DNA of 38,995 bases. Source: Marinifilaceae bacterium (GTDB taxonomy: Bacteria > Bacteroidota > Bacteroidia > Bacteroidales > Marinifilaceae). Numbering within the stretch: position 1 is the stretch's first letter; each line of letters begins with the position of its first letter. The position numbers and the translations under genes were made by a program. Shown here one piece after another: positions 24,926-26,463 of the stretch. The stretch lies in contig JAFGYE010000069.1 in NCBI GenBank assembly GCA_016936255.1, forward strand, positions 1 to 38,995, written 5' to 3'. The notes below the pieces were generated by a model. That model searched no databases. It was not told where the DNA came from and was given only the letters and a program-made list of their open reading frames with translations.

Positions 24926-26236
24926 CTAAAATAAATGATTACTTAATACCTGAAGGGCTGCTACTTTATTCTTCTGATCTACCAAAACGGAAATATTGTG
25001 TTTGCTGCCTCCGTAGGAAATCATTCGCAAAGGAATAGATTCAAGTGCTTCCAGTACCTTTTTAGCACTGCCTGCTGATTCGGATATAAAATCACCAACA
25101 ATACAAATTATCGATTGATTCTGATCTATCTCTACAATGCCAAATTTCAATAATTCCGCTTCTATTTCAGAGAGATTCGTATCATCATCTATTGTGAGCG
25201 AAATGGCTACTTCCGAGGTGGTTATCATATCAATCGGAGTCTTGTATATCTCGAATATTTCGAATACTTTTCGCAAAAAACCATAGGCTAAAAGCATTCT
25301 TCCCGATTTAATTTTTACTGCCGTAATTCCATCTTTTGCAGCAATTGCCTTAATTCCTTTTCCAACCAAATCGTCGGTAATTAAAGTTCCTTCGTCCGAT
25401 GGACTTAGTGTGTTCTTTAAACGAACAGGAATGCTCCATTGCTTGCATGGCATGATGCTGGAAGGGTGCATAATTTTAGCCCCAAAATAAGCAAGCTCGG
25501 CAGCTTCGTCAAAAGACAATTGTTTAAGAGCCTTGGTATTCTCAACAAAGCGGGGATCGTTGTTGTGAAAACCATCTATATCGGTCCATATTTGAACCTC
25601 TTCCGATTGCAGGGCTGCACCAATTAAAGATGCTGAGTAATCACTTCCACCACGCTTTAAATTATCAATCTCACCATATGTATTTCTACAGATAAAACCT
25701 TGAGTAATAAAAAGTTTCTGGTTAGGATATTGAGCGAGTTCACGTTCCAGATTTTCTTTGATATAGTATGAATCAGGTTCTCCGTCCTTATCAATCCGCA
25801 TGAAATTCAGAGCTGGCAGAAATACCGAATCTACACCAATTTCAGTCAAATAGTAATGAAAAAATGCAGTTGAAATTAATTCCCCCTGTGCAAGAATTGC
25901 TTTCTCCTGAAGTGCCGTAAAGCTGCGGTAAACAAAATTGCGGATGTAATTAAAATGAGATGTGATCAACTCATTCCCTTTGTTTTTGCCATTTGTGGTA
26001 GTAAATAGTTCCTCAATCCGCACTCTGTATTTTGCTTCCAACTCAGTGATTTTCTCATCCGCTTGTTCCATCTCCTTTTTGTACAAAAGATCGGCTATCT
26101 CAACAAGAGAATTCGTTGTTCCGGCCATGGCTGACAGAACTATAATTCTGGATTCATCACTTTGAACCAGTTGCGCAAGATTTTTAATTCTTTCGGGCGA
26201 TCCAACTGAGGTACCGCCAAATTTTAAAACTTTCAT
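24926..26236 (-). CDS. lysC: Aspartate kinase (monofunctional, lysine-type)
   Basis: A 436-residue aspartokinase that phosphorylates L-aspartate, the first step towards diaminopimelate and lysine. The N-terminus has KFGGTSVGS (residues 4-12). RGGSDYSASLIGAAL near 194-208 and WTDIDGFHNNDPR near 216-228 are the usual kinase-domain signatures. Two C-terminal ACT domains (about 300-436) with TSEVAISLTI and a short SYGGSKHNISVLV segment indicate allosteric control, most likely by lysine. It has no homoserine dehydrogenase domain, unlike ThrA. It is placed with lysA, preceded by a Lys-rich leader ORF and a terminator-like hairpin. Confidence 0.93.
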   Translation of the reverse strand: MKVLKFGGTSVGSPERIKNLAQLVQSDESRIIVLSAMAGTTNSLVEIADLLYKKEMEQADEKITELEAKYRVRIEELFTTTNGKNKGNELITSHFNYIRNFVYRSFTALQEKAILAQGELISTAFFHYYLTEIGVDSVFLPALNFMRIDKDGEPDSYYIKENLERELAQYPNQKLFITQGFICRNTYGEIDNLKRGGSDYSASLIGAALQSEEVQIWTDIDGFHNNDPRFVENTKALKQLSFDEAAELAYFGAKIMHPSSIMPCKQWSIPVRLKNTLSPSDEGTLITDDLVGKGIKAIAAKDGITAVKIKSGRMLLAYGFLRKVFEIFEIYKTPIDMITTSEVAISLTIDDDTNLSEIEAELLKFGIVEIDQNQSIICIVGDFISESAGSAKKVLEALESIPLRMISYGGSKHNISVLVDQKNKVAALQVLSNHLF

Positions 26237-26331: not shown

Positions 26332-26361
26332 AAAAAAAGCCTGCAGAATTTCTGCAGGCTT
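26332..26361 (-). terminator. Candidate attenuator terminator upstream of lysC
   Basis: On the minus strand AAGCCTGCAGAA and TTCTGCAGGCTT form a perfect 12-bp stem, followed at once by a run of seven T. This is a textbook intrinsic terminator, but it sits about 96 bases before the lysC start rather than after a gene. It begins 45 bases past the stop of the Lys-rich leader ORF. The upstream gene's stop (26570) is over 200 bases away, so it is better read as an attenuator than as that gene's terminator. Confidence 0.8.
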
Positions 26362-26406
26362 ATATCTCTTATCCGATAGCTTTACATCAATTCACATCAT
26401 ACAACG

Positions 26407-26463
26407 TCAAGAACGTTTATTGCGTTTATAATGTTTCTTGTATTTTAATGCAATTGCCATCAT
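26407..26463 (-). CDS. Lysine-rich leader peptide of the lysC-lysA operon (candidate)
   Basis: An 18-codon ORF reading MMAIALKYKKHYKRNKRS, with tandem ATG codons at 26463 and 26460 and a TGA stop at 26407. Five of the ten residues from position 7 to 16 are Lys. It is followed by a perfect hairpin plus U7, then lysC and lysA. This is the arrangement of translation-coupled amino-acid attenuators (compare thrL and hisL), with the residue that matches the pathway product. Lysine starvation would stall the ribosome on the Lys codons and prevent termination. An upstream RNA arm (CAAGAA in the Lys codons, TTCTTG at the stop) could form the pause hairpin. The peptide is too short for normal gene calling. 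Chance is possible in A-rich DNA, so the match to lysC is the main support. Confidence 0.65.
   Translation of the reverse strand: MMAIALKYKKHYKRNKRS

Follow-up and report, generated by a model that had tools for sequence, protein, structure and literature searches.

A candidate lysine leader-peptide attenuator ahead of lysC-lysA in Marinifilaceae bacteria

Sequence comparison and RNA folding indicated that the minus-strand region 26463-26332 of the window, i.e., the whole 38,995-nucleotide stretch of Marinifilaceae DNA analysed here, is very probably a ribosome-mediated transcription attenuator which senses charged lysyl-tRNA. A candidate lysine attenuator had been proposed for this region in a sequence-only reading, and both approaches support it, with lysine-dependent termination itself standing as a prediction. 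The attenuator reading is strengthened because a leader with swapped codons before thrA shares the spacer and the terminator, and because a Lys leader was also found in Flavobacteriaceae. The layout described earlier was borne out: an 18-codon ORF (ATG at 26463, stop codon 26409-26407) has five Lys in ten codons, its stop lies 45 bases before the stem of the hairpin, and lysC and then lysA follow, with 95 bases from the T run to the lysC start at 26236 (Table 1). The hairpin had been described as a perfect 12-bp stem with U7; the seven U are present, but the stem has 11 pairs instead of 12. The region holds a short ORF with codons for the pathway product, whose translation is indicated by its conservation, and an intrinsic terminator, read from the sequence, between this ORF and the genes which make that amino acid. 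The best model for LysC was lysine-sensitive aspartokinase 3 (379.7 bits, below its cut-off of 455). The protein is 89% identical to LysC of a Labilibaculum MAG, and the family of the window includes Labilibaculum, Marinifilum and Ancylomarina.

Table 1. Coordinates of the leader elements and of the downstream genes in the window
Feature	Coordinates	Strand	Basis and remarks
Leader ORF MMAIALKYKKHYKRNKRS with TGA stop	26407..26463	-	Candidate regulatory Lys codons 7, 9, 10, 13, 16
Segment 1, protector 5' strand: GAUGGC 26461-26456 and UUGCAUUAA 26453-26445	26445..26461	-	Fold; GAUGGC pairs with 26380-26375, UUGCAUUAA with 26390-26382
Segment 2, GAAUUGAUGUAAAGCUAUC	26375..26393	-	Partner of segment 1 in the protector, or of the terminator loop and 5' arm in the antiterminator
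Segment 3, antiterminator 3' strand GAU..AGC.UGCA..AAUUC	26346..26366	-	Fold; helices GAAUU 26393-26389 with 26350-26346, UGUA 26386-26383 with 26356-26353, GCU 26380-26378 with 26360-26358 and AUC 26377-26375 with 26366-26364
Intrinsic terminator, 11-bp stem AAGCCUGCAGA/UCUGCAGGCUU, loop AAU, seven U	26332..26361	-	Sequence; arms 26361-26351 and 26347-26337, loop 26350-26348, seven T down to 26332
lysC, aspartate kinase, 436 aa	24926..26236	-	TIGR00657, 297.6 bits (cut-off 208.7)
lysA, diaminopimelate decarboxylase, 385 aa	23742..24899	-	TIGR01048, 378.4 bits (cut-off 297.9)

Conservation of the leader ORF, its Lys codons and the hairpin upstream of lysC had been suggested as a check, and it came out positive in 22 of the 56 family genomes. 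Matches to LysC were obtained in 39 of 40 relatives, some of them not orthologues. A covariance model (R1), built from 13 leaders with the terminator stem as its only structure, matched at 94 bits or more in those 22 genomes, and in every one of these strong matches the next downstream gene was lysC, 76-100% identical to that of the window. The 34 family genomes lacking a strong match count against the attenuator; among those inspected by eye, lysC mostly lay close behind another gene and the terminator was absent, and a different leader was present in genera g11 and g14. Three of the weak R1 matches were located before thrA, and the others inspected (L139, L140) were not leaders of this kind. 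Across 21 distinct leaders the ORF encoded 17-25 aa and its stop position shifted; the distance to the downstream CCT in the terminator 5' arm was 98-107 bases from the ATG and 55-62 bases from the last core Lys. Frame 0 was open from the ATG through the core in all 21, as compared to 2.2 expected by chance when the 51 upstream bases were shuffled, and the other two frames were open in none. Lys was invariant at three codons (K-x-x-K-x-x-K) in 21/21, AAA and AAG occurred in a ratio of 9:12 at the first of them, and the N-terminal half was variable. From its sequence the leader peptide looks like a ribosome sensor rather than a functional small protein. The stretch AAACRCAAUAAAC (26427-26415, codons 13-17) was nucleotide-invariant in all 21 leaders, its Lys and Asn codons showing no synonymous variation; this exceeds coding need and counts against the attenuator.

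The region before lysC differed at several other loci. The leaders before lysC in the sister genera g11 and g14 (L016, L020, L213-L216, L220, L224) were of the YK[QH]MM type, conserved and accompanied by a terminator; they contain only one or two Lys and several Met, which is counted against the attenuator, and they are possibly sensors of changed specificity. L022 of genus g2 carries a distinct leader, MLPVQLINMKNEYKQKKYLLL, with 4 Lys of 21 and a short terminator. The gap between terminator and lysC was 244 bases in L032, a Marinifilum MAG, versus 71-103 in most others, and two Bacteroidales MAGs (L083, L094) share a similar element, GTGGATGAGGAAGGTCTCCC..ATGACG, before lysC.

An unbiased count was made from 187 lysC loci, which supplied 166 distinct upstream regions of enough length, and a terminator-like hairpin was found in 46 of the 166. 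A Lys-rich ORF (at least 4 Lys and at least 20%) preceded the hairpin in 27 of these 46 regions, where 1.5 were expected after shuffling. The 27 regions, 17 of the window type, nine of the Flavobacteriaceae type and one (L100) probably spurious, are not 27 independent events, as nearly all come from two lineages; about five true leaders with three Lys, e.g., L012, L088 and L130, fell under the cut-off. It could be argued that the hairpin is merely the terminator of the upstream gene and the small ORF a product of chance, an explanation which we regard as extremely improbable. The hairpin does stand about 210 bases beyond a 114-aa ORF (26914-26570) on the same strand, which matched no family and which we take to be MIF-like, and this gene adjoins the leader in the window-type genera other than g17. 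In g17 (L012, L088, L123, L128, L130-L132), however, no copy of this gene was detected in the flanks examined while leader and terminator remain, and the view that the hairpin serves solely to terminate the upstream gene was rejected on this ground. The preserved frame with Lys at three codons in all 21 leaders and the occurrence of the same spacer and terminator before thrA also argue against this explanation.

Ten pairs of the terminator stem were identical in all 13 aligned leaders and the eleventh in 12 of the 13, and RNAalifold returned it as the sole structure of the 13 whole leaders. The region 26500-26237 folded with a z of -4.2, none of 200 shuffles being equally stable, and the terminator contributes much to this value. 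Only weak antiterminator candidates had been noticed before; this gap is largely filled, as a conserved antiterminator and a protector pairing were found by computation. These two pairings are computed to be mutually exclusive uses of the spacer, and the antiterminator takes part of the terminator: segment 1 sits inside the ORF ahead of the Lys codons, and segment 3 is composed of part of the terminator 5' arm, the loop and the first bases of the 3' arm. Strands of the same leader paired better than strands exchanged between species, at -13.55 versus -11.43 kcal/mol for the protector (3 of 5000 permutations as good) and -7.99 versus -6.98 kcal/mol for the antiterminator (3 of 20000), with 16 of 25 leaders taken as representatives in statistics which ignore relatedness. 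Over 18 distinct segments the seven core antiterminator pairs were paired in 96.8% of cells, as against 22-49% when slid, and no two-sided base change was seen in these seven pairs or in an earlier candidate helix, which counts against the attenuator. In an uncontrolled count, one outer pair was U-A in 6 of the 18 segments and A-U in 5, the other 7 being unpaired at this place. The gain of single antiterminator folds over shuffles was modest, also a point against the attenuator, with 9 of 200 shuffles as good for the window and 1 to 67 of 200 across the 22 correctly anchored leaders; the mean z was -1.47 over 24 leaders, of which two (L113, L116) were mis-anchored. The remaining leaders, of both the Lys and the Thr kind, folded into similar antiterminator shapes, except that L137 and L138 lacked the middle helix. 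The terminator 5' arm of L131 and L132 is changed such that it mispairs in the terminator and pairs in the antiterminator. An alternative in which the spacer would pair with no more than the loop and the 3' arm of the terminator, good in some genera and poor in the window's own genus, was dropped in favour of the longer antiterminator. The pause hairpin suggested earlier did not hold up, since in a count confined to exact matches CAAGAA and TTCTTG occurred together in only 2 of 22 Lys leaders, both from the window's species.

The following course of events is proposed for the attenuator. When lysine is ample, the ribosome would reach the stop codon, segment 1 would bind segment 2 as the protector, and the terminator would form before lysC-lysA. 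When lysine is scarce, the ribosome would stall at the first Lys codons (7-10) and mask segment 1, and segment 2, once freed, would pair with the 5' arm and the loop of the terminator before the 3' arm has fully emerged. With the antiterminator formed, RNA polymerase would continue into lysC-lysA. In the ribosome-masked folding the nascent RNA ended four bases into the 3' arm, a footprint of 15 bases either side of the first base of the A-site codon was kept unpaired, and transcription was assumed to start 22 bases before the ATG. The terminator probability of the window was 0.99 in the free state. It fell to 0.05, 0.10 and 0.14 when the ribosome occupied Lys 7, 9 and 10, and was 0.73, 0.98 and 0.93 at Lys 13, Lys 16 and the stop, respectively. 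At the aligned Lys 10 the mean drop over 21 leaders was 0.611, as compared to -0.003 in spacer-shuffled controls, the largest of 25 shuffled-set means being 0.072.

Some of the folding results count against the attenuator. The drop was small in L114, L123 and L130 (0.11-0.17) and absent in L131 and L132, in which the antiterminator prevails even without a ribosome, and a ribosome at the invariant last Lys codon (16) did not free the antiterminator. A ribosome at the stop also reduced the terminator in some leaders, e.g., L117, L122 and L130. Averaged over the whole ORF, Lys codons (0.37, n=91) did not differ from other codons (0.41, n=332), since the protector is opened by a ribosome anywhere in the first half. 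Once the 3' arm was complete (+10), 8 of the 9 leaders run favoured the terminator in every state, L131 being the exception; because the completed terminator wins at equilibrium, the outcome must be decided kinetically. No switch was obtained with three leaders from fen MAGs that contain KK codons (L034, L037, L038), their mean drop being 0.04 and that of the shuffled sequences 0.07. The need for kinetics and the failure of last-Lys stalls to free the antiterminator would suit another explanation, in which the position of the ribosome acts through translation coupling, either by reinitiation or by exposing a processing site, and not by termination. The same is true of four loci from distant Bacteroidota (L051, L066, L067, L072), which have a short KxKxK ORF, e.g., MKFNFQIKCKCKWLSCH, before lysC and no canonical terminator there that could be seen by eye. 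We consider translation coupling exceedingly unlikely for the window, as it has to contend with a canonical terminator with seven U whose 5' arm and loop are occupied by the antiterminator.

The leaders before thrA bear on what the leader peptide reads. In three genomes of genus g17 the same spacer and terminator were found before thrA, and the peptide is rich in Thr and Ile: MNFTLTTTTIITMGSIITMPRSSCGIT in L137, a near twin in L138, and MNSALTTYMDQTTGTSIMMPCSSCGIM in L136. The start of the L137 peptide was set by alignment, and an in-frame ATG exists three codons upstream. The thrA gene of L136 encodes bifunctional aspartate kinase/homoserine dehydrogenase I, and those of L137 and L138 have 84-85% identity to it over 488 aa. 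The genome of the window also has a 31-codon ORF before thrA, in which Thr occurs 9 times, Ile 4 times and Lys not at all; this ORF resembles those of the relatives L142-L151, and its downstream structure differs from the lysC type. Lys codons stand before lysC-lysA and Thr/Ile codons before thrA; therefore, the leader peptide tracks the downstream pathway. The thrA leader of the window's own genus (L141-L148) has consecutive Thr codons at its end, where a small hairpin lies at the stop (CCCTTTAGGGGG); no U-rich terminator was seen there by eye, and the mechanism of this leader may differ from that of the lysC type.

In other phyla the textbook means of controlling lysine genes is a riboswitch, and a new lysine riboswitch, i.e., a metabolite-binding leader RNA with an incidental ORF, was weighed for the window as well. 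The invariant core AAACRCAAUAAAC and the nearly invariant terminator stem, both conserved beyond coding need, would be expected of such an element. It is nevertheless very unlikely, given that the N-terminal half varies while its frame is kept, that Thr/Ile codons replace Lys before thrA while the spacer is kept, and that no Rfam family reached threshold. This search covered 4227 families over the whole window and included the lysine riboswitch RF00168, T-box and Bacteroid-trp. RF00168 provides the kind of lysine control that is predicted for the window leader, and it matched neither the window nor any of the 56 family genomes, in which stricter filters were used; the control search was positive in 4 of 14 known genomes. 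A lysine riboswitch or other Rfam RNA was likewise rejected for ten relatives, whose 24 matches were all below gathering scores. Three weak minus-strand matches to BTncRNA_FopS in L012:3267-3876 were also below the gathering score. The scores of a TAnnTTTG promoter box did not exceed those of shuffled sequences, and the absence of a promoter box above chance level counts against the attenuator.

A second lineage of Lys leaders was found in one other family, in which 17 of 120 genomes have a window-type LysC, eight of them (genera g37, g176) with a Lys leader and nine (genus g170) without one. This family appears to be Flavobacteriaceae, because the upstream sequence of L198 is that of L110, a Flavobacteriaceae entry. 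Together with Flavobacterium sp. HSC-61S13 (L090), in which lysA adjoins lysC, nine Flavobacteriaceae-type leaders are available; lysA was not found near lysC in L232. Their peptides are like MILSNLKKxKKQNLRRTS or MMNTWIIKKGKKQYLRRTS, and each is followed by a terminator with at least 7 T. In all nine, the terminator probability was 0.0 when the ribosome stood on the last Lys codon and 0.6-0.8 when it had reached the stop, and the mean drop from the free state was 0.57, as compared to -0.03 for shuffled sequences. In L192 and L194 the terminator was low even when free (0.06 and 0.07), which counts against the attenuator. UCGUGA, spanning the stop codon of these leaders, has its complement in UCACGA, which lies in the loop and the 3' arm of the terminator.

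Regulation by classical attenuators is textbook knowledge for Thr, Trp, His, Leu, Ile/Val and Phe. The attenuator of the E. coli thr operon (thrL), like the ribosome-mediated trp, his, leu and ilv attenuators, consists of a short ORF rich in codons for the product, a spacer with two exclusive pairings, and a terminator before the biosynthetic gene. The leader of the window has the same plan, i.e., product codons, a dual-pairing spacer and a terminator before a biosynthetic gene; unlike the thrL type, it uses lysine codons, occurs in Bacteroidota, and has as its antiterminator a stem with small internal loops that includes the terminator loop. By its sequence and predicted folding it is most likely a classical attenuator with lysine specificity. 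The principle of ribosome-mediated attenuation is set out in the available text of PMC1183508. In the same phylum, the main text of PMC9723704 reports 'strong clues' for leader-peptide attenuation before amino-acid operons of Flavobacterium psychrophilum, and lists pheA and hisG among the 5' elements whose conservation extends to other genera; lysine is nowhere mentioned in that main text, Table S7 lying outside this scope. Bacteroides thetaiotaomicron, of the same phylum too, has long 5' UTRs with short ORFs 'reminiscent of leader peptides' (PMC7366714), as in the window; the available text of that paper contains neither the word lysine nor a worked-out mechanism. Bacteroid-trp (RF01692) is a cis-regulatory RNA of Bacteroidetes according to the available part of PMC2864571, and the window has no Rfam match to it. 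The available text of PMC2965389 has no occurrence of lysine or of Bacteroid and describes no lysine leader, and none is described in that of PMC4833913. No description of a lysine leader peptide was found in the literature searched, a coverage which most subscription papers lie outside.

For the phylum, we see an even chance that recurrent Lys leader-peptide attenuators replace the lysine riboswitch at lysC of Bacteroidota, that the family chassis of spacer and terminator is shared with thrA and the codon cassette sets the amino acid, and that the Flavobacteriaceae form is of separate origin, with the stop codon within the antiterminator strand. A lysine attenuator, in a family where a lysine riboswitch was found in 0 of 56 genomes, would fill a gap among the classical attenuators. 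The occurrence of Lys and Thr cassettes on a common chassis within a single genus would be a natural experiment by which the specificity of attenuation can be tested directly, and the lysine/threonine leader chassis may offer a tunable amino-acid sensor for Bacteroidota.
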